32,883 nucleotides of DNA, taken from positions 1 through 32,883 of IMG/VR virus record IMGVR_UViG_3300023284_001561. One strand, given 5' to 3'. Under the pieces are notes generated by a model. That model was not told where the DNA came from, did not search any database, and saw only the letters and a program-made list of their open reading frames with translations. Shown here piece by piece: positions 5,041-29,469 of this stretch; position 1 is the first letter of the stretch, and each line of letters starts with the position of its first letter. The DNA is from a virus. Both the position numbers and the translations under genes were made by a program.

Positions 5041-5186
5041 TTCACCCCCTCAATAAATCCGTCCTTAAACCCCTCTAAATATCCGTCGTGGTAGTCGTCG
5101 TCACTGACAACCGCCACCGCTACAAGGATTGCCCCTATAACCGCTAAAAGCAAAACGCCCTCCAGGTCCCAGAGTCTTGACCTCAT
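5037..5186 (-). CDS. Tiny single-span membrane protein (49 aa)
   Basis: The gap between two neighbours is filled by an open frame starting ATG at 5186 and ending TGA at 5037. It overlaps the upstream stop and the downstream start by 4 bp each (ATGA at both ends), which strongly supports it. The product has a hydrophobic segment (GVLLLAVIGAILVAVAVV) at about residues 10-27. An acidic tail with a DGYLEGFKDGFIEG repeat-like pattern follows. Coming right after the exported nuclease, it may act at the same membrane, but no function is known. Confidence 0.7.
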   Translation of the reverse strand: MRSRLWDLEGVLLLAVIGAILVAVAVVSDDDYHDGYLEGFKDGFIEGVK

Positions 5187-5716
5187 TTCAACACCGCCCT
5201 TTCCCGTATATGCCGGTAAATCACCCGCAAAAGCTCCATATCCTGAATAATATGGCGATTGTAGCCCTTATAGCCGTTTGGGTGGCCCACCGTCTTATGA
5301 TGTCCTATACACAATTCGACAAGGTTCGCCTGGTCGACCGCCAGCCAGGGGGCAAAACTAACCGGGATTTTATGGTGTATCGGGTTTCGGTTTTTGCTCT
5401 CCAGGCTCTTTTTTATGCCGCAAATCTCGCACCCCAGGCCCTTCGCCGCGTATAGGTCCTTGGCTTTCCTGATTTGGTAGTCCGTAAACCGGTTTGTATT
5501 GGAGCCAGGGGCCGATAATTGAACCGTGTATACATAAGCGTCCTCCGCGCTGAAAAACGTGTTTGTTATCCAGTACCAATCGCCAAACACCGTTATAGGC
5601 GCATTTGTCTCAACCGGGTCCGCCTTCGCTGGCGGCGCCAGGCACAAGCTAGAAATCCACAACGCCAACAAGGGGACCAGGAGCCCCCAGAATAGTCCTG
5701 TTTTACTTAGTCGCAT
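5183..5716 (-). CDS. HNH endonuclease with an N-terminal export signal
   Basis: The 177-aa protein has a basic start, a hydrophobic stretch (residues 8-27) and an AKA|D-type cleavage site near residue 32, i.e. a Sec signal peptide or membrane anchor. A spacer follows, then an HNH domain: C96-x2-C99, HH at 114-115 in NPIHHKIPV, N131 in ANLVELC, C136 and GHH at 138-140. This is the zinc-finger HNH layout. HNH nucleases usually act in the cytoplasm, so export is odd. The start overlaps the upstream gene by 14 bp and follows AAGGGG. A role against incoming or extracellular DNA is inference. Confidence 0.82.
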   Translation of the reverse strand: MRLSKTGLFWGLLVPLLALWISSLCLAPPAKADPVETNAPITVFGDWYWITNTFFSAEDAYVYTVQLSAPGSNTNRFTDYQIRKAKDLYAAKGLGCEICGIKKSLESKNRNPIHHKIPVSFAPWLAVDQANLVELCIGHHKTVGHPNGYKGYNRHIIQDMELLRVIYRHIRERAVLK

Positions 5717-11559: not shown

Positions 11560-12135
11560 TTACACGTTTACGACAATAAGCCGCGTAAGGTCCTCGAAAT
11601 TATGGGCCAGAATCCGGTTTTCAAACGTCCTGGGCGTAAATAGCGCTTTCTTTTTGCCGTTCCGACCGTCCAGGCAATGGGCCAGGGCGGAAAGGTAGGA
11701 CCGCGCGCAAAGCTGGCTACACCAGGACAAGCGAATAGGCGGCAAAATGCCCGTTTTGTCGATCAGTAGGTTATAAAGCGGCATGGCAAGGAGTACCATT
11801 CGGCGTTTGCGGGGGTATTTGAGCCCCAGTAGATTGTCGACGAAATACCGGGCCGCGTTTTCCCGCTGGTCCGGCCCCAGGGTCAGGAGCCTATAAAAGC
11901 CCACTTCGTAGCCCTCGGCATTTATCAGGTTTTCGTAGTCATGTATGGGCGTCAACACGGATTCCGGGGGCTTGGCCTCGGCAATAAACCATTCGCCTTT
12001 ATGCCAAACCACCATAGCATTATGGTTACTTTCAGACTGTACCCCCACCCGTATAAGGGCCGATTCGGCCCCCTTGTTCGCGCGCCCGGTGACCAGTAGG
12101 CCGGGCTCCAGATGCTCTGTAAGTATTCGCTTCAC
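11560..12135 (-). CDS. Permuted NlpC/P60-like (YiiX-type) papain-fold protein
   Basis: This 191-aa protein shows the permuted papain order. His38 comes first in SNHNAMVVWHKGEWFIAEA, with Glu53 as a possible third residue. The Cys (C139) comes late in SWCSQLCARSYLSAL, at the start of a helix. Members of this fold cleave peptidoglycan peptides, amides or lipids. No signal peptide is present, so it would need a holin-like route, virion carriage or a cytoplasmic target. Start GTG overlaps the previous stop (GTGA). It is the last gene of the late block and a candidate lysis enzyme. Confidence 0.6.
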   Translation of the reverse strand: MKRILTEHLEPGLLVTGRANKGAESALIRVGVQSESNHNAMVVWHKGEWFIAEAKPPESVLTPIHDYENLINAEGYEVGFYRLLTLGPDQRENAARYFVDNLLGLKYPRKRRMVLLAMPLYNLLIDKTGILPPIRLSWCSQLCARSYLSALAHCLDGRNGKKKALFTPRTFENRILAHNFEDLTRLIVVNV

Positions 12136-12830
12136 TCTTCCAGGGGCTTTTTGACTGTGATTTTGTTTCTATTGCCGTCGACAATTAGCGTGGCGGGGTC
12201 GCTTTCAAGCGTTATCTCGTTTTCGTCACCCTTGACCCCCACAGACGTCACCGGGTTTCCCTTGGCGTCGACGGCATAGGTGGCGGGAATGAGATTCCTG
12301 GCCGCGCTCTTCTTTTGGGACCGCTTGGCGTCCTTTTCTTTCTTATAGTTCCGGTATTCGTAGGCGCCATAGGCCGCCAGGGCCACCATAGCCGATTCCT
12401 TTGGATTCTGCACAACCGTTTGCCCGGCCTTGCCCAAAAGCTTCCCAGCGCCGCCCAGGACCGCGCTGGCGCCATTGACGACGCCCGCCCCCAGGTTGAA
12501 CACAGTGGCGCCCAGCGCGCCCAGTGGCCCGCTACTCTGGCCCAGGGGCTTATATGGGACCTTGAAGCCGCTACTCCGAACGCTCTGGCCTATAACCTTG
12601 GCGTCCCAGGCGACCCGTACCCCGCCCCGCGTCGGTTGAACCCGAACCGGTGGCAGATTGTCGGCGGCTGTCGTCCTGAAAAAGATGCCGTTGAATTCTT
12701 CGCCGGTGTCGGGCTGGTCGGGCTCGCATGGTTCTACGGTCGCGGCTTCGGGTGCCAGGGCCTTGTCCTGGGCGATTGCGGTAATGGATAGAAACCCCAT
12801 AATTAGGGCCAGAATTATTGTCGTTTTCAT
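12132..12830 (-). CDS. Exported hypothetical protein with Gly-rich hydrophobic core
   Basis: A clear Sec signal peptide (residues 1-20, AIA|QD cleavage) leads to an acidic stretch. A Gly/Ala-rich hydrophobic region follows (LGALGATVFNLGAGVVNGA...), then a Lys/Arg-rich segment (EYRNYKKEKDAKRSQKK). The beta-like tail includes ITLESDPATLIVDGNRNKITV. The hydrophobic core could insert in or lie on a membrane. AAGGGG precedes the ATG. No family is recognised. It lies between two cysteine-peptidase-like genes. Confidence 0.7.
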   Translation of the reverse strand: MKTTIILALIMGFLSITAIAQDKALAPEAATVEPCEPDQPDTGEEFNGIFFRTTAADNLPPVRVQPTRGGVRVAWDAKVIGQSVRSSGFKVPYKPLGQSSGPLGALGATVFNLGAGVVNGASAVLGGAGKLLGKAGQTVVQNPKESAMVALAAYGAYEYRNYKKEKDAKRSQKKSAARNLIPATYAVDAKGNPVTSVGVKGDENEITLESDPATLIVDGNRNKITVKKPLEE

Positions 12831-12847
12831 GTGTTCCCCTTTTCGTG

Positions 12848-13600
12848 TTATTTTTTTATTAGCCCGTCGGTCCAGGACGTCCAGGCCTCTATTTCCTCTA
12901 TTTCGGCCATATAAGGGCCGTCATCAATAGCCGTTTCCAGCCAATATTCTTCTTTCAACGTGAAATAGCCGTATCGCCCGCGCCCGCTTCCCCAGGAGTT
13001 AAGCAAAACGCGCCATTTTGTCAACTCGCCCTGGTCGTCGTCCTGTTCCAGGGTGGCGCAAAGTAGGGTTGCATGGCCGCCTTTGTGCTTTCTTGAGGCT
13101 TCGTGATTAATACAACCCGATTCGGTCGACACGTCAAACCAACCGGGCGTTATAAAGTGACCTTGTACCAGTGGGGCGTCCAGTAATGCCCTGTTTACGC
13201 TGTTCCAGTCCTGGGCAATTCGTACCAGGTCGGACCCCTCTGGAATCCAGCCCAGGGAAACCGCGGCCTCGAAACCCTGGCTGATATGCAAGCCCCCGTT
13301 TAACTTATTCCCCCAGAACAGGCGCCGCCCTTCTTTCCAGATCGCCCGCCCGTCGATTTGCTCGCCCTCTGGGATAGCTCGTGGGTGAATATAGCGCCTT
13401 ACCATAGCCTCAATCCAATTTGCCCAGGCGTGGCCAACACATGAGTCCCCTTTCTGGTTAAAAGTCGGTAGCATATAGCCGAACCAGGTAGAAACCGGGC
13501 CCACGTCGCCAGATATAACCGACGAAGCCGCCAGGGGGGCGTCTGGTACAAGCGCGCCGCGCCAGGCGTTGGGGTCCTCGGTTATCGCGCCGCCGTTCAC
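12848..13600 (-). CDS. Papain-like (C1 fold) cysteine protease
   Basis: The 250-aa protein shows the full C1 catalytic set in the normal order. Gln49 (oxyanion hole) and Cys54 lie in NQKGDSCVGHAWANWIEAM, His176 in KGGHATLLCAT, and Asn201 in LLNSWGSGRGRYGYFTL. The NSWG signature is typical of papain. There is no signal peptide and no pro-domain of usual size, so it may act in the cytoplasm, in the virion, or on peptidoglycan after lysis begins. The GTG start overlaps the lipoprotein stop (GTGA). It is uncommon in phage genomes. Confidence 0.82.
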   Translation of the reverse strand: MNGGAITEDPNAWRGALVPDAPLAASSVISGDVGPVSTWFGYMLPTFNQKGDSCVGHAWANWIEAMVRRYIHPRAIPEGEQIDGRAIWKEGRRLFWGNKLNGGLHISQGFEAAVSLGWIPEGSDLVRIAQDWNSVNRALLDAPLVQGHFITPGWFDVSTESGCINHEASRKHKGGHATLLCATLEQDDDQGELTKWRVLLNSWGSGRGRYGYFTLKEEYWLETAIDDGPYMAEIEEIEAWTSWTDGLIKK

Positions 13601-13854
13601 TGGGCCACCGTGGCGGGCGCTGGGGCGTTGGTTGGCGCGCTGTTCGTCCAGGTGCCGGGAAAGTTCGTCCAGGATGGCGGCGCTACCAGGTTGCCGTCTG
13701 CGTCCCTCAACTGGCCCGGATATGGGAATTTACCGCCTAGAGTGGGGTCGGTTTGACAACCGGAAATCATTAAAACCAGCGCCATAGATACAAACAGGGC
13801 CGCCAGGGCCAGAAAAATAAGGGCGGGCTTATTGTTTGGGGGTTCCGGTATCAT
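13597..13854 (-). CDS. Small lipoprotein (o-spanin-like candidate)
   Basis: The 85-aa protein has a hydrophobic stretch (ALIFLALAALFVSMALVLM) ending in the lipobox ISGC, with Cys33 the likely lipidated residue. The mature part is short and Pro/Asn/Thr-rich, ending PTNAPAPATVAQ. Short Pro-rich lipoproteins in late operons are often outer-membrane spanin subunits, and a spanin would imply a diderm host. No matching i-spanin is certain; the upstream membrane/coiled-coil gene is a candidate partner. Confidence 0.65.
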   Translation of the reverse strand: MIPEPPNNKPALIFLALAALFVSMALVLMISGCQTDPTLGGKFPYPGQLRDADGNLVAPPSWTNFPGTWTNSAPTNAPAPATVAQ

Positions 13855-14210
13855 TTCTGCCTTTCCTTGTTTTCTCTCACCTTATCAACCCAGGCTATAA
13901 TATGGGCAAAGTCGTCCTTGTGAAATATCGGCAATGTCAAATCTGGGTATAAGTCTAAAACATATTCGGGCGGTAGGCTAGACATTACCATAGCAGGCGC
14001 CTCCGCCGCGCATACCTCGGCAAACCCGGCGCCGGACAAAGGGGGCAACCGATAATCTACTATATAGGCGTCGAACCCCTCAACTTGAACCATGCGCGCG
14101 GCGTCTGATAGGTTCGACGCATAGCGAACATCGTGACCCTCCAGGGCGTCGGATAACAAAAGAATCATATCAGGGTCATCATCGACCAGTAGAATTTTTA
14201 GACAAGTCAC
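13851..14210 (-). CDS. Stand-alone CheY-like response regulator receiver protein
   Basis: The 119-aa protein is a complete receiver domain. The acidic pocket is LLVDDDPD (Asp10-12), the phosphoacceptor is Asp52 in YIVDYRLPPLSG, the Ser pair is in MVMSS (77-78), and the conserved Lys98 is in FHKDD. All key residues for phosphorylation by a histidine kinase are present and there is no output domain. The GTG start overlaps the upstream stop (GTGA) and the stop overlaps the lipoprotein start (ATGA), so it belongs to the late operon. It could divert host two-component signalling; the target is unknown. Confidence 0.88.
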   Translation of the reverse strand: MTCLKILLVDDDPDMILLLSDALEGHDVRYASNLSDAARMVQVEGFDAYIVDYRLPPLSGAGFAEVCAAEAPAMVMSSLPPEYVLDLYPDLTLPIFHKDDFAHIIAWVDKVRENKERQK

Positions 14211-14635
14211 TGGCGTTTCTTTCGTCTGTGTATGGTTTCAGAAGCGCCTACAAGCTGGGTAACGGCTTCGATCTGTTCGCTTACCTGGCTTTGGTGTTCG
14301 GAATGTGTCTCGGCAAGCTGCAAAAGCTTGTTGATTCTATCCGACTGAGCCTCCCCGGCGCGCGTCGCTATTTTTGAGTGTTCTTGCATAACGGCTAACT
14401 GGGTCTGTATTGCGTGGGCGGTCGTCTGCAAATCCTTAACCGCTTCCCAGGCGTCGCATTCGGCGGGCGGTGCTGGCGGTGGTGGTGGCGGTGCCTCTGT
14501 GGCGGCCTTGGTGTCCCCCCTGGATTGCTGCCACCGCATGAAATCGAAACAAAGTTTAAACGCATACATTACACAAGCCCCCAGGCCGGTATATTTAAGG
14601 GTTGTGAGGTCGCTTGATAAGGCGTCTGCGAGCAT
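14207..14635 (-). CDS. Membrane-anchored coiled-coil protein, holin/spanin candidate (142 aa)
   Basis: I take the ATG at 14635 because GGGAG lies 8 bases upstream. A TTG at 14683 would extend it into the previous gene. The N-terminus has a hydrophobic span (residues about 9-32, LTTLKYTGLGACVMYAFKLCFDFM). It is followed by a Pro-rich linker (APPPPPPAPPAE) and a long helical region rich in Gln and Glu, probably a coiled coil. A membrane span plus coiled coil suits an i-spanin or a holin-like protein; position next to lipoprotein and protease genes supports a lysis role. Confidence 0.55.
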   Translation of the reverse strand: MLADALSSDLTTLKYTGLGACVMYAFKLCFDFMRWQQSRGDTKAATEAPPPPPPAPPAECDAWEAVKDLQTTAHAIQTQLAVMQEHSKIATRAGEAQSDRINKLLQLAETHSEHQSQVSEQIEAVTQLVGASETIHRRKKRQ

Positions 14636-14663
14636 TGGCGCTACTCCCGGCGTTATTAGCCCG

Positions 14664-15062
14664 TTATGGGCCGGTTGGAACAAAAATCTTTAGATCGAAA
14701 ACATGAAACATATTGGTACTGGTTGGAAAAACGCCTATTTCAAGCTGTGTAACGGTTGAGTTTGTGCCCTGGATATCGTCAATAATCGCCTGGGTAAGCG
14801 GGCCGCCGACTTCAAATTGCATACGGGAATACCAGAAAACCTCCCGCAAATCGTTTGTGTCGCTATTCAGGCCGAACGATACGCCCTGGCTGCAAGCGTT
14901 TGTCTTGCCGCATTGTACGTCTATAAGCGCGTGTACTCGGTTTACTTCGCTGGTTGAAAGGTTGTCGTGTTTCATCCATACGCCCACGACGTCCAAGTCA
15001 TTTGTTGCCTGGGCCGCTACGCCCAGCGTAAGAATAGCCGCAAATATAAAGCTTTTCATCAT
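14664..15062 (-). CDS. Exported hypothetical protein (132 aa)
   Basis: Start at the first of two adjacent ATGs (15062), right after the upstream stop and 8 bases past AAAGG. Residues 1-20 form a signal peptide (FIFAAILTLGVAAQA|T). The mature part has two Cys (QCGKTNACSQG) that could make a disulfide in the periplasm, and beta-like segments (VTQLEIGVFPTSTNMFHVFDLKIFV). No family is recognised. Confidence 0.65.
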   Translation of the reverse strand: MMKSFIFAAILTLGVAAQATNDLDVVGVWMKHDNLSTSEVNRVHALIDVQCGKTNACSQGVSFGLNSDTNDLREVFWYSRMQFEVGGPLTQAIIDDIQGTNSTVTQLEIGVFPTSTNMFHVFDLKIFVPTGP

Positions 15063-15063
15063 A

Positions 15064-15891
15064 TCAATTACCTTTCGTGCCGACGGTTGAGTCAAAAAAG
15101 GCCTGCACTTCGGCATCTGAAAGACGGACGTTCCACATAGCAACGTCATCAATCAAGCCAATCCAGGGCGACGTTGAACCCAGGCCAAAGTCCTCATTCC
15201 AGCCAATAAGCCAGCGATTGTTGACTTGGATTTCTGTCCAGTTTACCGAATCCGTTACCTGTATTTCATTTACCAGGGCGCCCGCCGAGCTAGAAAAGAA
15301 AAACTCTGCTTTGTCGTCCGAAGCGCTACCCCTGACAAGCCAGAAACGCCACTTGTTTATAGTCAAGTCGCCCGCGGTGCTATGCCAGGGCAATCCGGTT
15401 ATATCGTGGTGGTGGGTAGAAACCCGAAAAAGGGGCCGGTGCGTATTCACAATAAATGAATTTTGTATTCCGTTCTGACTGGCGCCGCCGCCGTCGGGCA
15501 AGTTCGGCCCTTTCATAGCCAGGGGGGCGGAAGCGATACGGAAAGCCGTGGTTTCCTTGGCCCAAAAACACCAGGTAACGTCCGCCTCGGTATCCAGAAA
15601 GGCCAAGTCTGTCCCTATAACCCAGTAATCGTTGCCGTCATGCGACGTATAACCGCCTGTTAGCGTTGGCGTACTTGACCCCCCTGGGTCAACCAGGTCA
15701 TAGGCCGCGCCCAGGGTGCCCGCGTTGGCCGTTGAACCGCCTTCAAACTGGTACAGGGTCAAGGGGTCGGGGAAGTCAAAGACTGGCTCCGAGTCGCCCA
15801 CAAAGCCCACCGGGAAAGGCAAGGCCAACACGCCAGCGACAAATACAGCCACAAGCCCGACCGCCAAAGATGATATTTTCCAGGCGCTCAA
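15064..15891 (-). CDS. LamG/concanavalin A-like lectin-fold protein with N-terminal hydrophobic signal
   Basis: The N-terminus (SLAVGLVAVFVAGVLALPFPVGF) is a signal peptide or anchor. The remainder is a LamG-type beta-sandwich, with LTLYQFEGGSTANAGTLG at the start, WCFWAKE, INKWRFWLVRG, and the closing IGLIDDVAMWNVRLSDAEVQAFF, the diagnostic end of Laminin_G_3 domains. Such domains bind carbohydrate, so it may act in adhesion to host glycans. The TTG start overlaps the fibre-like gene (TTGA). Confidence 0.8.
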   Translation of the reverse strand: MSAWKISSLAVGLVAVFVAGVLALPFPVGFVGDSEPVFDFPDPLTLYQFEGGSTANAGTLGAAYDLVDPGGSSTPTLTGGYTSHDGNDYWVIGTDLAFLDTEADVTWCFWAKETTAFRIASAPLAMKGPNLPDGGGASQNGIQNSFIVNTHRPLFRVSTHHHDITGLPWHSTAGDLTINKWRFWLVRGSASDDKAEFFFSSSAGALVNEIQVTDSVNWTEIQVNNRWLIGWNEDFGLGSTSPWIGLIDDVAMWNVRLSDAEVQAFFDSTVGTKGN

Positions 15892-17156
15892 GGCGTAAAC
15901 CCCTTGATTGTTGGGACCGCGTAGAATTTCGACCCGCTACGGGCTACAAACGTTATTACGTCCTCCTTGCCCCCGGTCGTCGTCAAGGTCGGCGCGGAAA
16001 CGCCATCGCCCCAGTCGTAACCCGCCGCCCAGGTAACCGTCCGCGTCCCCGTCCCGTCCTGTTGTAGCAGTAGCATATAGGTTGCCCCTGGCTGGATATT
16101 GCTGGGTAAGTTGATTGTGGGGTTTCCGGTCAGAATAACAAATTGAATATTTCCATTATCGGCATCCCAGTCCAAGGACGCATTATAGGCTATTTCGTTG
16201 ATTCCCACGTTATACACCTGGCCGGTGATCGCCAGGTTACCGTTTAAGGTGGTGTCGCTATTCACGTTTATTCCGTTTGTTGCCACCAATTCAAGGGTAT
16301 CGTTGGCCCGGATTTCTATGGGGCCGGTTACGCCCGCGTGGATATAGCCCGCGGACAGCGCCGGGGAAGCGCCAAAAAGTACGTTGGTCGTGAAAACAAC
16401 ATAATTCGTCAGCGCGTGATTCAACATAGGCGTCCCCTCAGAGGAGCCCAGGGTACGCGTTTGCCAATTGTAAGAAATTGTGGCCGTAGAGTCCTGTAAA
16501 TGCCTCAAGTTCAACAAGGCGACGGGGTTTCCCGCCGTGTCCCTGACTTGGCCGTCTGTGCCGCTTATCATTTCCTGGCCGGTTGAGTATACAAGGGACG
16601 TAGCCGTTGACGTCGCCAGGATCGCCGCCAGGTATTCAACGTTATTCGTCAATACCCAGGGCGCTTCACCGGTGTTTTGTACGCTGTCCCAATTAACGAT
16701 TTGTTGCAAGTTGAGTGTACCGGGCCCGCCTGTTATAGGGCTCCGGCTTACCGCCAGGGTTCCCTTGCCCAGGACGAAAGCGCTACCTATTTCGGTGCTA
16801 TTGGTCTGTACTGCTTGCCAGAAAAAGGACCCGTTTTGCGCCAGGTCAGATGCCGGGATTTCAAGGTCAAAATAGTTGTCTGTAGTGTTCGCGCTGGCCT
16901 CAATCAACACCATAGACGTCGAAAGGTCCCAGTTTGTCCCGTAGCCGAACAAAATAAAGTCGTCGACCGTCAAGGTGTTTAGCTCGCCCTCTGTATAGCT
17001 GTAAATCCTGACTTTTGTAGTCGATAATTGGACGGTGCTTATAACTTTCGACTCGGTGGCGCTCTGGGATTCAACGCGAACGTTTATGTGTGGCGCGCCC
17101 AGGGAGCATGACGCCCCCAGGGCAAGCGCCATTATTGCAAATATGTAGGTTTTCAT
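15888..17156 (-). CDS. Fibre-like protein with signal peptide
   Basis: The 422-aa protein starts with a Sec signal (residues 1-21). An N-terminal beta domain (about 25-150, VRIYSYTEGELNTLTVDDFILFGYG) recalls BppU-type upper domains of phage receptor-binding proteins. A central region of repeated beta strands (TLELVATNGINVNSDTTLNG) follows. The C-terminal segment (TINLPSNIQPGATYMLLLQQ, then TWAAGYDWGDG) is a pattern common at phage tail-fibre ends. A tail fibre with an export signal is unusual. It overlaps the upstream gene by ATGA. Confidence 0.75.
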   Translation of the reverse strand: MKTYIFAIMALALGASCSLGAPHINVRVESQSATESKVISTVQLSTTKVRIYSYTEGELNTLTVDDFILFGYGTNWDLSTSMVLIEASANTTDNYFDLEIPASDLAQNGSFFWQAVQTNSTEIGSAFVLGKGTLAVSRSPITGGPGTLNLQQIVNWDSVQNTGEAPWVLTNNVEYLAAILATSTATSLVYSTGQEMISGTDGQVRDTAGNPVALLNLRHLQDSTATISYNWQTRTLGSSEGTPMLNHALTNYVVFTTNVLFGASPALSAGYIHAGVTGPIEIRANDTLELVATNGINVNSDTTLNGNLAITGQVYNVGINEIAYNASLDWDADNGNIQFVILTGNPTINLPSNIQPGATYMLLLQQDGTGTRTVTWAAGYDWGDGVSAPTLTTTGGKEDVITFVARSGSKFYAVPTIKGFTP

Positions 17157-17401
17157 GGCTTCGGCTTTTCCTTTGGGCTGTTTTGCTGGGCGATTTGTAG
17201 GGCTCCGGTGACAACCCGATTATATAGCGCTTGGGCGTGGGGGTAAAGTTCATCGTTCATAGCCAGGGGCAAGTTTTGGATAGCATGGCACAAAACGCTC
17301 GCCTCCATATCATTCAACTCTAGGGCCAGCGTCGACTTGATTACAGGCGCGGCCTTCTTTTTGCTGGCTTTTTTCTTCTTGGTTCTGTTCGGCTTTGGCA
17401 T
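17153..17401 (-). CDS. Small Lys-rich protein (82 aa)
   Basis: Start ATG at 17401 follows AAGGGG. The first 22 residues are extremely Lys-rich (PKPNRTKKKKASKKKAAP). The rest is a helix pair (LALELNDMEASVLCHAIQNL, then ALYNRVVTGALQIA). Its basic tail suits nucleic-acid or polyanion binding. It is the one clearly cytosolic-looking protein inside the exported cluster. No family is recognised. Confidence 0.6.
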   Translation of the reverse strand: MPKPNRTKKKKASKKKAAPVIKSTLALELNDMEASVLCHAIQNLPLAMNDELYPHAQALYNRVVTGALQIAQQNSPKEKPKP

Positions 17402-17417
17402 GGTTTCCCCTTTAGTT

Positions 17418-17684
17418 TTACTCAGACACGACAATCCATACGCCATTTGTTAGCCTATGGAAGGTGTTTGTTGTTGGATTGCCTATATAATAAAAAGGGT
17501 GTGGAATGCCAGAAACAACCGACTCAGCGCTCGCATCAAAGGCCCCGTCTGTAGCCCAACTATTGGTAGAAACGTACCCACCGCGTAACAAGTTGCCCGT
17601 TGCGGTTTCGATAACACCGTTGCCGCCAGCAAGCAAAGCCGCCGCCAACGTCACCAAAAACAAAAAGAATGCTGAAATTTTCAT
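17418..17684 (-). CDS. Small exported protein (88 aa)
   Basis: Start ATG at 17684 overlaps the upstream stop (ATGA). Residues 1-20 are a signal peptide (SAFFLFLVTLAAALLA|GG). The mature 68 residues are small, polar and aromatic, ending HRLTNGVWIVVSE. No family is recognised. Confidence 0.65.
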   Translation of the reverse strand: MKISAFFLFLVTLAAALLAGGNGVIETATGNLLRGGYVSTNSWATDGAFDASAESVVSGIPHPFYYIGNPTTNTFHRLTNGVWIVVSE

Positions 17685-18445
17685 TTTAGTTCGTCGTCCC
17701 ATTTTAATAGCATTATACCCAGCCGGTTTTTCGTGTGGGTAACCTTGTATTCTACCTCCTGGCTCGCGTCGGTCAGGATGTCCGCCCTATAATAAGTAAA
17801 ATCCCCGCTTTTGTGTCCGTTCTGGATTCTCGCCAGGGCCCAGTCCGCATCTTTGGCCTTTATCCTTGCCGAGTCGTTATCTTCTGGCCCGGCGCCCAGG
17901 CCGGTTTTAAACTCGATTTCGATAGTTGCCTTTTTCGACGTCGGGGGAACCAGGGAGCCCAGGCCCACCGTTGTATAGTTGGTTGCGCTACCCCCGCCCA
18001 TAACTCTAAGGTCTGCCTTTTGTTCGTCGTACCAATAAGCCCGGTCCCGACCGCTACCGCTCTGCCTAAAATCCAGTAAATCGCCGCCCGGGCCGTTCCT
18101 TATCCAGCCGATCCGCCTGGCCGCGTCATAGCCTACGGGGGTCGCGGCGTTGGTCGAAAGTACCGCCTCATACGCCTCATTAGTTTTTGCAATATAGACG
18201 GCATACCACATATCAGGCGCCTCCGCCCCCGCGTCAAGGTCGTCGGGTAGCGTGACGGTGACGGTATTGGTGAAGTTCAGATAACCTTTGCCGTCCGAAT
18301 CAATACAGGTTCCGACGGCAATTGTTACGTTTGAGGCGCCGCCGTAGGTCATTTCTAGGCCCGATATGTAACCGGTTTGATTTACCATTGTGACGCCACA
18401 AGTTATGGCCGCCAGAAATCCCATCAAAGCTATTTTCTTATACAT
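17681..18445 (-). CDS. Exported tail-appendage-like protein (254 aa)
   Basis: Start ATG at 18445 follows GGTGG. The signal-like N-terminus is KKIALMGFLAAITCGVTM. The body has the motif WYAVYIAKTNEAYEAVLSTN, then PVGYDAARRIGWIRN, a pattern frequent in phage tail-appendage proteins (WY-hydrophobic, LSTNA, GYDxxRRIG). C-terminal beta strands follow. With the neighbours it forms a run of fibre-like proteins bearing signals. Confidence 0.72.
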   Translation of the reverse strand: MYKKIALMGFLAAITCGVTMVNQTGYISGLEMTYGGASNVTIAVGTCIDSDGKGYLNFTNTVTVTLPDDLDAGAEAPDMWYAVYIAKTNEAYEAVLSTNAATPVGYDAARRIGWIRNGPGGDLLDFRQSGSGRDRAYWYDEQKADLRVMGGGSATNYTTVGLGSLVPPTSKKATIEIEFKTGLGAGPEDNDSARIKAKDADWALARIQNGHKSGDFTYYRADILTDASQEVEYKVTHTKNRLGIMLLKWDDELK

Positions 18446-18452
18446 ATCCACC

Positions 18453-19253
18453 TCAATCGTACTGTACAAAAAGCTGTATTCGCACATCTTCCGGGCTGTC
18501 GCCCTTTTCGTCTATATCCATCGTAAAGAAATCGCCCGCCGCAAAGGCCACCACGTCCGGCAATATAGCCTCAAAAATATAGTTGTCATCCTTGCCCCCT
18601 GCGTCGCCTACAATCGTCGGCCTATTGCCCTGGGTTGTATATACGGTTGTGCCCGTCGTTCCCCCCCTGGCTGTGGTTATGGGCTTTGTAGGGACGTGCA
18701 AATTGATGTCGAACGTTGCCGGGGTTCCAACAAGGTCCTTGCGTTTTATGGCTGTAACGACAATAGACACAATTTGCCCAGCCTGGGCAAACGCGCGTAT
18801 TCCGTCGATGCCGTCGCCGTCGTTGATAGGGCCGTTTATAATCCACGCAACTTCCTCCTGGGACCTGACAGCGCTAGCCCCCAGCGCCGCGTCGATGCCC
18901 GCCAGGTGTTCGGATATCGTGTTTGTAGCAACCGCAACGTAACCGGTGGGCGCATAGGTCGCGGGAGTGGCCGCGCCGTCTGCTAGATTGAGCGTAAGGA
19001 CCCCATTGGAGTCCGTACCTAGCAACGGAATCGGGTTTGTAAAGCCGCCCAGGGTGAAAAACGTCAAATTGGTGGGCCATTGCATAAGGCTTTCCCGCAT
19101 ATCCCAGGTTACAGAACCCATGCTGGTCGTCGATACCCCCTGGCTTTCCATATCCAATAAGCCCGTAGTCAGGTCGACCGAAACCGGCGAAAAGTTTGTC
19201 TGGGCGTATATCGGCCCGCAGATAAAAACCAGCAATATTGCCAAATTCTTCAT
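18453..19253 (-). CDS. Exported structural-like protein (266 aa)
   Basis: Residues 1-18 are a signal peptide (LAILLVFICGPIYA|Q). The body is beta-rich, with Gly/Thr-rich segments and the sequence MGSVTWDMRESLMQWPTNL. The C-terminus looks like a beta-sandwich (TFDINLHVPTK, then FFTMDIDEKGDSPEDVRIQLFVQYD). It directly follows the 443-aa tail protein. I infer a tail-appendage or surface protein. Confidence 0.65.
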   Translation of the reverse strand: MKNLAILLVFICGPIYAQTNFSPVSVDLTTGLLDMESQGVSTTSMGSVTWDMRESLMQWPTNLTFFTLGGFTNPIPLLGTDSNGVLTLNLADGAATPATYAPTGYVAVATNTISEHLAGIDAALGASAVRSQEEVAWIINGPINDGDGIDGIRAFAQAGQIVSIVVTAIKRKDLVGTPATFDINLHVPTKPITTARGGTTGTTVYTTQGNRPTIVGDAGGKDDNYIFEAILPDVVAFAAGDFFTMDIDEKGDSPEDVRIQLFVQYD

Positions 19254-19260
19254 AATTCCC

Positions 19261-20592
19261 TTATGGAGTACACAAAATCCCGTTATTTATTACACACTCT
19301 ACAGGACCGCCAGGCCCCACCCGCGTCAAGCGTACCGTTTCGCCGTCAATGGCTATTTTCCCGCTAACCTTCAACTCCCCGGCAAAGTCAAAGGTAACCT
19401 GGCTGCCTGCGTCGGTCGTCTGCAAAACCAGGTCATCAAGCCCGCTGCCACCGGTGGCGGTCGTCGTGACCCGCTCAACCGAAGCCCTAAACTCTGTCCC
19501 GCCGCCCCCGTCGTCGCCCCAGCGATTGTTAACCGGGTCGACAACATAAGCCAGGACGTTCGCGTGGATTTCCCCGGTTGTGTGAAAGGTCTTATCCTCG
19601 GGGACCGTAGCGCCTGAATATCGCAAATATCGGGGGTCGTGATCTTCGCACAACTCCCCGCCGCCGTCGGCAAAGTCGCCCGTTGTCGATCCGGTGATTG
19701 AATCTATTTCGTGGTGCTGAATTATCGCGCTCCAGGTAGCCCCCAGGCCAGGCGTTGCGTCGATGATAGAAATAATTTCGTTGATAAAGTCGATGTCTAC
19801 AATATTGCTGGCGAATAGGTCTTGAACGCCCTGCAAAGTCCCGTATTTGAGGGTTTTGTTTACGTCGTCGTCCTGCCATAAAAGGACGTCGGCTAACGTT
19901 GGCGTGACGTCCGGGTGTGTATCCCAGTCGAATAGCTGCAACGTCTGGCGGTGTAGGCCGCCCCGGTCGGCGTATTGTAGGCTGTTGTATTTGCGATCAA
20001 TAAAGGCCTCGGGTGGGTTTGTCACATCAAAGGCGCTGTCTGAGTCGGGGATAATAGCAAAATCATCTATATCACCGGTCCAAAATTGCTTCCAGACCGA
20101 GCCCGTAAACTTGCCGATTACCCTAATTACGTTGTTGGTATCGCCTGGCTCTGGGTCCGTGATGCTGCTTTTTATCGTGACCTTAAAGGGCGCCAGGGCT
20201 GGGTCCTCATCGGCATTTGTAAGCAACACAAACTCGCGCTCCAACTCCAAATAAATATAGTCCTCTGTCCCGTAGCTAGTGATTGTCTGGTAACCCTTGT
20301 CCAGGTCCAGGGTGATACTGACCTTTTTCCCGCGACGGCTCCAGGCGCCCAGGTAAACAAAGGACGTGCCGTCTAGCTGGTCGATTAGCTGAAAGCGCAA
20401 AGGCCCGTTATTCAACTCAGAGGAATCGACAATGATTTGCCACCCCAGGCCCTCGCCCCCTGGCGGCTTCTCAATATGGCATCCGATACCCTGGATATCG
20501 TTGAATATATTGGCGACGGTTTTAAGCCAGGCCGCCTGTATATTGGCGATAGGTTCGCCGGGCCTGAACACGTTATTTAGCGGAAACCCCAT
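19261..20592 (-). CDS. Tail protein, probable distal tail/fibre component (443 aa)
   Basis: No signal peptide. It starts NNVFRPGEPIANIQAAWLKTVANIF, like many phage proteins that open with an arm binding the virion. Beta-rich domains and a Gly-rich C-terminal part follow. It includes YADRGGLHRQTLQLFDW and ends with a small Cys-containing tail. Position after the tape measure supports a tail-tip or fibre role. Canonical Dit and Tal proteins were not recognised. Confidence 0.65.
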   Translation of the reverse strand: MGFPLNNVFRPGEPIANIQAAWLKTVANIFNDIQGIGCHIEKPPGGEGLGWQIIVDSSELNNGPLRFQLIDQLDGTSFVYLGAWSRRGKKVSITLDLDKGYQTITSYGTEDYIYLELEREFVLLTNADEDPALAPFKVTIKSSITDPEPGDTNNVIRVIGKFTGSVWKQFWTGDIDDFAIIPDSDSAFDVTNPPEAFIDRKYNSLQYADRGGLHRQTLQLFDWDTHPDVTPTLADVLLWQDDDVNKTLKYGTLQGVQDLFASNIVDIDFINEIISIIDATPGLGATWSAIIQHHEIDSITGSTTGDFADGGGELCEDHDPRYLRYSGATVPEDKTFHTTGEIHANVLAYVVDPVNNRWGDDGGGGTEFRASVERVTTTATGGSGLDDLVLQTTDAGSQVTFDFAGELKVSGKIAIDGETVRLTRVGPGGPVECVINNGILCTP

Positions 20593-20887: not shown

Positions 20888-22645
20888 TTAACCCCCACCT
20901 TTCAGGACCAACAAGCCCTCTATTTTCTGCCGGATACCCTTGATGTCCTTTGCCTGGTCCGCTTCCCGCTGCAAACGCAATTTCTCCAGGTTAAGCTTTG
21001 CCTGTTCGATTTTCTTGCGCTCTTTTTCTACGGCAACAACCGCCTTTCGTTCGTCAATCAAGCGCCGTTCGTGGGGGGTCAGTTTTTGCCCCTCCTTTTG
21101 GCGCTCAATCAGCTTGTCGACCTTTTCATTATTCTTCCGGTCCTCATCTAGGGCCAACTCCTCGCCCTTGGTAAGGTCGTTGCGGTTCGCCTTTCGTAGC
21201 CGAAAATCCCTAAGCTCCTCCTGGGTAAAGCCCCTGGCCAGCGCCTTTTCCCGCTCTGCCTGGCGCCTATCCTTTCGATCCTGGGGCGTTTCCCGCCGCC
21301 TGGCCGCCGCCCGTTCAAGCGCCGCCTGTTCCCGGCCTAGCCGCTCCTCGGCTTTCTTCTTTGCGACCTGGTTGTCCCTGACTTCCGCGCCGCGCTCAAA
21401 ATCACGCACCTTTTTACGCAAGACTTTCAAGTCCTTTACAGCCTTTTCCGCCGCTTTCTTGGCCGCTTTATCGGCTTTTTTCTCGGCCTCCTTGGCTGCC
21501 TTTTCGTCGGCCTGCTTTTGCCCTAAAGCCAGGTCGTCGGCAATCCTCTTAGCGGCTGCCTTCTTTTCAAGTTCTGCCTTCTTTTCGATTTCCAGCTTCT
21601 TTTTGGCGGCCTCCTCGGCAAGCCTTGACTCCTCCTCGGCGGCTTTTTCTGCAATCCGGTCCTTGCCCCCCTTTAGGGCGTCAGATATAAACTTTCTGGC
21701 TATAACGCCCGCCGCGGCCTCCTCCAGGCTTTCGCCATCGTTCATTCGCTTTACGACCTTTGCCGCAAAGTCTAGTTGTTCGATAACAAATTTAATGCCC
21801 TTGGCCAGGGCCTCCATTGCTTCTAGGGCGTGGTCCGCCCATTTGTCAATTGTGCCGTCCTGCCTCAAACGGTCTATCATATCAATCAAGCCCTGGATTT
21901 TGTCCTTTGCAAGGTCCTTAAATTTGTCCCCAAAAGCGGCAAGAGCGCCGGTCCACTTGTCTTTAAGCGTTGAAATCAGGCCGTCGCCGGTTAGACTCAG
22001 CTTTTCCATCCCGCCTTCGCTTTTCTCTAGCTCGGCCTGTAGGAGCCCCCAGACTTCGGCGTTGCTGGCGCCCGCCTTCTGTAATTCCTCCATTTTTTGC
22101 CGCGCCGAGCCTGACAAAATTCCCATTTCTTGCAACCTGGCCGCCGCTTCCCCGAATGGTTGGCCGTTACGGATCGCCCCATAGGCCCTGGCGGTCCACA
22201 TCCCGACTTCTTGAATAGGCGCGCCCACCGCCGCCGCCGCGTCGCCTACGAGCATTAGGCTATCTTTAAGCCCCAGCACTCCGCCAGTCATCGCCAGCAT
22301 AACCTTTGAAGCCGCGGCAATGTCGGTCAACTGGAAAGGCGTTACGTTGGCAAACTCCTTAAGGTCGTCAAAATGCTGTTTTGCCGTGTCCATATTGCCG
22401 AATAGGACGGCAAACTGGGTCTGGTATTTCTCAAATTCAAAGGACGTGGCAATTGCTTTGACGAAAGTTGCCGCTATTGCTGTAAATCCAATGAACCCAG
22501 CCGCCAGGCCCTTCAAGCTTAGTAGCGCGCCTGTTACGCCAGAACTAAAGCGCCGCCTAAACGCGTTGACGCCCTGGGCAATTCGGTTAAACCCGCGCTT
22601 TGTGAGATTCTTTACCCTTACGATAATTGATAGTTCTTCGGCCAC
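20888..22645 (-). CDS. Tail tape measure protein (585 aa)
   Basis: The protein starts LSIIVRVKNLTKRGFNRIAQGVNAF, with a hydrophobic segment at about 40-65 (SLKGLAAGFIGFTAIAATF). The core FEKYQTQFAVLFGN...FANVTPFQLTDI is the usual tape-measure N-terminal motif. The second half is long Lys/Glu/Ala-rich coiled coil. The start is GTG, overlapping the upstream stop by one base. It is short for a siphovirus. At about 1.5 angstrom per residue this implies a tail near 90 nm, as an estimate. Confidence 0.85.
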   Translation of the reverse strand: MAEELSIIVRVKNLTKRGFNRIAQGVNAFRRRFSSGVTGALLSLKGLAAGFIGFTAIAATFVKAIATSFEFEKYQTQFAVLFGNMDTAKQHFDDLKEFANVTPFQLTDIAAASKVMLAMTGGVLGLKDSLMLVGDAAAAVGAPIQEVGMWTARAYGAIRNGQPFGEAAARLQEMGILSGSARQKMEELQKAGASNAEVWGLLQAELEKSEGGMEKLSLTGDGLISTLKDKWTGALAAFGDKFKDLAKDKIQGLIDMIDRLRQDGTIDKWADHALEAMEALAKGIKFVIEQLDFAAKVVKRMNDGESLEEAAAGVIARKFISDALKGGKDRIAEKAAEEESRLAEEAAKKKLEIEKKAELEKKAAAKRIADDLALGQKQADEKAAKEAEKKADKAAKKAAEKAVKDLKVLRKKVRDFERGAEVRDNQVAKKKAEERLGREQAALERAAARRRETPQDRKDRRQAEREKALARGFTQEELRDFRLRKANRNDLTKGEELALDEDRKNNEKVDKLIERQKEGQKLTPHERRLIDERKAVVAVEKERKKIEQAKLNLEKLRLQREADQAKDIKGIRQKIEGLLVLKGGG

Positions 22646-28332: not shown

Positions 28333-29469
28333 CTAGCCAGCGATAAGCGCGCCGCCGTCGGGCTGAATAACTCGCGCCCCACAGAATACGTCGATTACCA
28401 TTGAATCACTTAAGCTTGTGATCGAACTATCTTGCGACACCCGGACAGATACGCCCTGATGGGTTGCAATCACGCTGTTTCCGCCTGAAAGGGGCTCGGG
28501 TGCGACAATTGCGACCGTTGCGGCGTTCGGGTGGAATACCAGGTTAGAGAAGCCAGCCGCTTCAAACGTCACCGCGGCGCCGTCGCCAGGTGCGGCAACC
28601 AGGGCCGGGAATACCGTCAAACTGACAGCATTTGAGGCAATGGTGGCGTCCTTGCGAACGACGTAGCGGGTGGAGTCACCGGCCAGGGTGAACACCGCAC
28701 CGGCAAAAATGGTGCCGGTTGCGTTTGTAATGCCGTCGATAGGCACTACAGTCGCGCCAATTGCTGGCGTCCCGTTGGTCAACACTGTTCCCGTAATGTC
28801 GTCAGGATCAGCCGAACGTACAAACACGTCTAGGTTAGGGTTGACTACCCAGTCAAAGCCATAGCGGCGCCCCAGCATAGCGTTACGCAACGCCATAGGC
28901 CCATCCTCGCCGAAATCGCGATTCTGGAATTGTGCCAACTGGGAAAACGATTCCTCAACCGTCGTGTCCAGCAAGCCTATCCGCATTTCTTCCAAGATAA
29001 AGTTGTCCTGCATTACCTTGTGGGCCGCGGCAATATGAGCCATTGACGACGGGCGGTTAGTCACCGTTCCGGCCAACTGGGCGCGGAAAACCTGTAGCTG
29101 CGAATTAACGTACTTGTCAATTGAGCTAGCAATACCACCCATAAAAGGCGCGGTAATCAAGCGGGTGAATTCGGAAAGCTCAAAGCTTTTCTGTTTGGTC
29201 GTCAAGTCAACGCGTTTGTAATAGTGCTTATCTAGCGTCAAGTCGATTTCGGTTTCTGTGATGTCAGAAGCGACCGTCGAACCGGTGAATTCGCTTGCAT
29301 CCGATACCGCTGGGGGGACGGTTACCTTGATCGAATCGCCGACCTTTGTGCCCATAAAGCGGGCCTCTTTGTCCCGAGAGACAAGGTTTGCGGTTTTCAT
29401 GCGGTTATAAAGTACAACCGCTGCGTCCCGCGCGACGTCCGTGGGTGTTACGAGTGTGTTAGTTGACAT
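28333..29469 (-). CDS. Major capsid (coat) protein, P22 gp5-like
   Basis: The 378-aa protein starts TNTLVTPTDVARDAAVVLYNRMKTANLVSRD and contains KVGDSIKVTVPPAV, TTKQKSFELSEFTRLITAPF, and an SSMAHIAAAHKVMQDNF helix. This layout matches the P22-type coat family (HK97 fold). An inserted beta domain spans about residues 220-320. A separate scaffold gene lies just upstream and no prohead protease was recognised, which fits the P22-type strategy. GGAG lies upstream of the ATG. Confidence 0.88.
   Translation of the reverse strand: MSTNTLVTPTDVARDAAVVLYNRMKTANLVSRDKEARFMGTKVGDSIKVTVPPAVSDASEFTGSTVASDITETEIDLTLDKHYYKRVDLTTKQKSFELSEFTRLITAPFMGGIASSIDKYVNSQLQVFRAQLAGTVTNRPSSMAHIAAAHKVMQDNFILEEMRIGLLDTTVEESFSQLAQFQNRDFGEDGPMALRNAMLGRRYGFDWVVNPNLDVFVRSADPDDITGTVLTNGTPAIGATVVPIDGITNATGTIFAGAVFTLAGDSTRYVVRKDATIASNAVSLTVFPALVAAPGDGAAVTFEAAGFSNLVFHPNAATVAIVAPEPLSGGNSVIATHQGVSVRVSQDSSITSLSDSMVIDVFCGARVIQPDGGALIAG

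Follow-up and report, generated by a model that had tools for sequence, protein, structure and literature searches.

Introduction

Assembly of tailed phages, including that of their fibers, is held to be entirely cytoplasmic. Exported phage proteins are known from other settings: the coat proteins pIII and pVIII of filamentous phages carry signal peptides and are exported before they enter the particle, and superinfection-exclusion lipoproteins such as T5 Llp are phage-encoded, exported, and act on receptors. In a survey, phage DGR target proteins were found to lack signal peptides, unlike the surface-displayed bacterial ones (PMC6199706), and for verrucophage P8625 (KP792622), the SignalP run of its authors found no signal peptide in any protein (PMC4642752). 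We found no report of tailed-phage fibers with Sec signals in the open-access literature, although this is weak evidence, as most subscription journals lie outside it. Here, we discuss the virus record IMGVR_UViG_3300023284_001561, analyzed over its whole length of 32,883 bases (hereafter, the window), in which a sequence-only reading had noticed a cassette of fiber-like genes with export signals inside a tail operon.

Results

The ends of the record overlap by approximately 145 bases: words from one end are found again at the other, and the terminase frame repeats 48 residues at either end. These direct terminal repeats indicate a complete genome of approximately 32.7 kb, so that few other fiber candidates remain. 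Family searches identified the terminase, the portal, the major head protein (28333..29469, minus strand; phrog_283, E = 1e-59), and the tape measure protein (585 aa; 20888..22645, minus strand; phrog_973, E = 5e-16), which bears no signal and points to a tailed phage with a long tail. The cassette, also on the minus strand, comes after the tape measure gene, a 96-aa gene, and, directly upstream, a gene for a 443-aa tail protein without a signal (19261..20592, minus strand; 38% identical to a 530-aa protein of the relative G550), and is followed by spanin-like and peptidase genes. It is thus placed between the tape measure and tail tip genes and the lysis genes, as is its counterpart in G550. 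The host is probably a member of Verrucomicrobiota, because relatives of the head protein and of the LamG-like protein sit in Verrucomicrobiota genomes.

Signals were scored with an in-house gene caller and a score built from N-region charge, hydrophobic core, and a cleavage matrix, the last derived from 17 E. coli-type signals; 17 known E. coli signals scored 12.6–25. A gene was counted as signal-bearing at a score of 5 or higher or with a lipobox, a threshold picked after the window had been seen. By this measure, a signal was carried by 8 of the 12 genes within 12132–19253 that encode 80 aa or more; elsewhere in the window the figure was 2 of 33, and in loci of unrelated phages serving as controls it was 11 of 389 (Fisher p approximately 8e-5 and 2e-9, respectively; both values are indicative only, as the threshold was post hoc and genes are not independent). 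All six cassette genes in question, encoding proteins of 266, 254, 88, 422, and 132 aa and the 275-aa LamG-like protein, were located where the sequence-only reading had placed them and scored above 5, in agreement with its view that each begins with a Sec-type signal, and the 82-aa Lys-rich gene among them (17153..17401, minus strand) was likewise found to be a cassette member without one. No gene from position 19261 to the right end scored above 5, and no signal was present from the terminase through the 443-aa tail protein.

The N-region, hydrophobic core, and type I site are clear in the 266-, 88-, and 132-aa proteins and in a 232-aa protein of the same operon, whereas the cleavage site is weak in the 254-, 275-, and 422-aa proteins. 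Scores of the 254-, 422-, 275-, and 266-aa proteins (5.4–9.0) fall short of the values for strong E. coli signals, and these signals are therefore less certain than those of the 88- and 132-aa proteins. The starts of all six genes overlap the preceding stop codon or sit no more than 8 bases from it; this spacing, together with ribosome-site-like sequences, ruled out wrongly called starts as the source of the signals. None of the six proteins has a lipobox, which in this operon is confined to an 85-aa spanin-like gene, and they do not show the combination of lipobox and small size that marks superinfection-exclusion lipoproteins. No C-terminal surface anchor was noticed on the mature proteins, which is a mild argument against a role as a host coat, one of the roles first suggested alongside an exported adhesion layer and uptake by virions after lysis. 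A need for disulfide formation was considered as a reason for export and judged unlikely, because the mature parts contain 0–2 cysteines.

The first cassette gene (18453..19253, minus strand) encodes the 266-aa protein, whose predicted Sec-type signal MKNLAILLVFICGPIYA ends before Q (score 9.0) and which has no family match. The 254-aa protein (17681..18445, minus strand; signal MYKKIALMGFLAAITCG, score 5.4, weak cleavage site) carries the second, receptor-binding protein domain of Mtd (PF21916, E = 1.6e-8, over the curated cut-off), which begins almost directly after the signal; within phrog_34307, the match starts only at position 164. The start of the 88-aa gene (17418..17684, minus strand) overlaps the preceding stop, and its product bears the signal MKISAFFLFLVTLAAALLA before G (score 12.0); kinship of this protein with the capsid-adjacent family described below was considered, but the similarity was not convincing. 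The 422-aa protein (15888..17156, minus strand; signal MKTYIFAIMALALGASCSLG before A, score 6.3) consists of a mature N-domain and a tail-fiber-type C-terminus, the latter supported by phrog_9017 and others (E about 2e-5; domain of tail fiber families) and by tblastn matches to annotated fibers. Searches of phages and of 388 Verrucomicrobiota genomes gave no match to its mature N-domain, and Pfam and PDB gave nothing meaningful, weak antibody matches being taken as chance. The fold of this domain was not predicted with confidence; single-sequence structure predictions reached mean pLDDT values of 39 and 44, too poor for a fold search. The LamG-like protein (15064..15891, minus strand) starts at TTG and has a hydrophobic N-terminus (score 8.1, weak site), with PF13385 at E = 7.8e-6, just below the cut-off. 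The last gene (14664..15062, minus strand) encodes the 132-aa protein with the signal MMKSFIFAAILTLGVAAQA before T (score 13.6). The fiber-like identity proposed from sequence is therefore supported for the 254- and 422-aa proteins and narrowly misses the cut-off for the LamG-like one; the 266-, 88-, and 132-aa proteins, which in family searches matched no known fiber or receptor-binding domain, may be called fiber-like from their position and composition.

Two signals in the same operon go beyond the six noticed earlier. One is the strong signal MKTTIILALIMGFLSITAIA before Q (score 17.4) of the 232-aa protein (12132..12830, minus strand), which has a weak DUF3060 match near its C-terminus and is encoded between papain-like and C92-like genes. 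The other belongs to the 85-aa proline-rich lipoprotein (13597..13854, minus strand), which has a lipobox and is probably an ordinary spanin, a part of lysis; a 142-aa protein with an N-terminal membrane segment and a coiled-coil-like tail (14207..14635, minus strand) is possibly its partner. The papain-like peptidase (C1 family; 12848–13600, minus strand) is 57% identical in G550, and a permuted papain of the C92 type is weakly matched at 11560–12135 (minus strand); both may be lysis or processing enzymes. The late operon also contains a stand-alone response-regulator receiver domain (13851–14210, minus strand; PF00072, E = 4e-8). Elsewhere in the window, a 177-aa HNH-like protein (5183–5716, minus strand; below the Pfam cut-off) has the strong signal MRLSKTGLFWGLLVPLLALWISSLCLAPPAKA before D (score 17.3) and is possibly an exported nuclease.

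Relatives were sought with the major head protein, which across the 388 Verrucomicrobiota genomes had counterparts with 61% identity in G376 and 33% in G048. An alignment of the three capsid proteins led to ten viral contigs at 40–67% identity and two distant ones. Genome relatives of the LamG-like protein were found only in Verrucomicrobiales, and weak genome matches of the 254-aa protein were judged spurious on inspection. When IMG/VR was scanned with one protein at a time, the capsid, 254-aa, 266-aa, LamG-like, terminase, and PDDEXK-nuclease proteins yielded no relatives, and RecT gave mosaic neighbors only, without the cassette; tblastn of the LamG-like and 266-aa proteins against 50,697 phages gave no match.

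The closest relative with tail genes was G550 (L042, L056), which has the same core gene order at 38–75% identity. Directly after its 530-aa counterpart of the 443-aa tail protein follow signal-bearing proteins of 440, 90, 138, 851, and 89 aa, then a 126-aa protein with a membrane segment, and then the papain-like gene; the synteny is therefore preserved in another phage, with five signals at the same place. The 851-aa protein shares its N-domain with the 422-aa protein of the window (56% identity over the mature domain), whereas the C-termini differ, that of the 851-aa protein reading as LamG-like by eye without being reported by Pfam. In this pair, similarity is most evident after the predicted cut, but approximately 9 of 21 signal positions are still shared, so that the extent to which the signals have diverged speaks only mildly for cleavage. 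The 440-aa protein has a weak tail fiber match at its end (phrog_24754, E = 6.5e-4).

A small signal-bearing protein is also encoded next to the capsid gene in seven relatives, in the position of a decoration protein. It follows the capsid gene in G550, L043, L044, L046, L047, and one G376 element (C10) and precedes the likely capsid gene in the second G376 element (C6); it is absent from the window and from L045. In G550, this protein carries a lipobox and may be attached to the membrane. Signal-bearing proteins with collagen repeats are encoded in both G376 elements (871 aa, Pfam collagen 5.5e-39; 593 aa, Pfam collagen 1.3e-15). The two match at 55% in the middle but not over the first 100 residues, indicating that the domain after the signal has changed and the signal itself has persisted. 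No tape measure gene was recognized in the G376 elements, which may therefore be short-tailed, decayed, or satellite-like. These elements (L037, 5002–18079; L089, 1032–11919) are related and contain head, collagen-fiber, and lysis-like genes; one has stress-protein-like and transporter-like genes between its terminase-like gene and portal, and G376 has two further portal fragments.

Conversely, in six fuller and more distant Verrucomicrobiota prophages found with a portal profile, a signal was present in 1 of 108 genes, and this gene may belong to the host. When P8625 was scored in-house, a few weak matches were obtained, none of them on a fiber or LamG gene. Signals as a property of all Verrucomicrobiota phages were thus rejected, and the trait characterizes a clade, not the host phylum as a whole. 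The view that exported fiber-like proteins in a tail operon are unexpected is strengthened by this pattern of recurrence in relatives and absence from distant phages of the presumed host phylum. Many Verrucomicrobiota genomes also contained a compact block of portal (~460), ~175-, ~384-, ~122-, ~170-, and ~417-aa genes followed by host genes, or a portal with a ~97-aa gene (L095, L097–L099, L101, L103, L118–L121, L124–L127), some portal frames having in-frame stops; this block may be a domesticated or gene-transfer-agent-like element.

Discussion

Fibers are usually regarded as cytoplasmic proteins free of export signals, but signal-like N-termini are predicted on all six proteins discussed here. 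From these predicted signals, their conservation in the clade, two fiber or receptor-binding domains, the operon position, and the signal-free core genes, we infer export, cleavage, periplasmic storage, and attachment at lysis, and tentatively propose that proteins of the virion exterior pass into the periplasm, undergo processing, and attach to virions when the cell lyses. The cassette would encode fiber- and lectin-like proteins destined for the particle surface. A cleavable Sec signal on each would direct it to the host periplasm, where signal peptidase I would cut and the soluble mature protein would be kept. Heads and tail tubes, made without signals, would be assembled in the cytoplasm; upon lysis, the inner membrane would open, the two pools would meet, and mature fibers would bind the tail tip. 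In relatives, the exported capsid-adjacent protein would attach to the capsid likewise.

We favor export followed by joining because it explains both the fiber cassette and the capsid-adjacent gene. The signal on the latter and the conserved N-domain with a swapped C-terminus (422 vs. 851 aa) argue for virion-exterior proteins, the domain arrangement looking like that of fibers with a conserved anchor, here a putative one. We also count P8625 in its favor, since this phage has normal virions with fiber and LamG genes after the tail genes and no signals. On the other side, we know of no tailed phage that assembles by export and subsequent joining, no known family matches the putative anchor domain of the 422-aa protein and its predicted fold is not a confident one, the product of the capsid-adjacent gene in G550 bears a lipobox, several cleavage sites are weak, and the G376 elements have no recognized tape measure. 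The broader proposition that a clade of Verrucomicrobiota tailed phages sends virion-exterior proteins through Sec and finishes building its particles at lysis, beyond the cytoplasm, by a two-compartment route, is more doubtful.

The main alternative, which we consider unlikely although close in weight to export followed by joining, is that the proteins are exported but never enter the virion: as receptor-binding lectins located in the periplasm or at the surface, they might occupy receptors or glycans of the infected cell, block superinfection, or act after lysis as decoys, so that progeny do not adhere to debris. Such receptor masking would suit the 254-aa protein, in which the signal lies so close to the Mtd domain that there is no room for a virion-binding domain, as well as the lipobox in G550 and the signal-bearing HNH-like protein, which implies that the phage may use export for other ends. 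However, a site between capsid and head-completion genes is odd for a host-surface protein, the mature parts have no noticed anchor, and the conserved N-domain with exchanged C-termini has the appearance of a virion anchor. The hydrophobic N-termini could instead remain uncleaved and act either as helices that are part of the virion structure or as tethers to the membrane of infected cells. We regard this as quite improbable: the weak sites of the 254-, 275-, and 422-aa proteins fit it, whereas the Lys-containing n-regions, hydrophobic cores, and AxA-like sites of the 266-, 88-, 132-, and 232-aa proteins and most relatives do not, nor do a hydrophobic pattern kept while the sequence changes and a 422/851-aa similarity that, despite the partly shared signal, is clearest past the predicted cut. 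Least probable of all is a cargo site gathering host-type exported proteins such as adhesins, with host-inherited signals and no defined phage role, which would agree with LamG relatives from Verrucomicrobiales bacteria only but not with the same position and trait and partly shared proteins in G550, the fiber domains, or the similar signal-bearing gene at the capsid.

A clade with signals on its fiber genes but not on its head and tail-core genes would mean either that the last steps of particle assembly take place outside the cytoplasm or that the phage's own receptor-binding proteins form a separate exported layer. Either outcome would change how fiber genes are recognized and annotated, as such genes may pass for host or secreted proteins; for two-compartment assembly, if true, we found no earlier description in tailed phages.

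Compared with known systems, the 254-aa protein shares the second domain (PF21916) of the major tropism determinant Mtd, but here a signal precedes the domain, and no reverse transcriptase was seen in the window. The phage resembles P8625, a Verrucomicrobia siphophage that has a comparable genome size, a P22-like coat annotation, and fiber and LamG/ConA-like genes after the tail genes, but the proteins of P8625 lack signal peptides. Filamentous phages differ in that they are not tailed and are assembled at the inner membrane with extrusion and no lysis. Exclusion proteins of the T5 Llp type are single small lipoproteins, whereas the window encodes a run of larger fiber-like proteins without a lipobox in a tail operon.
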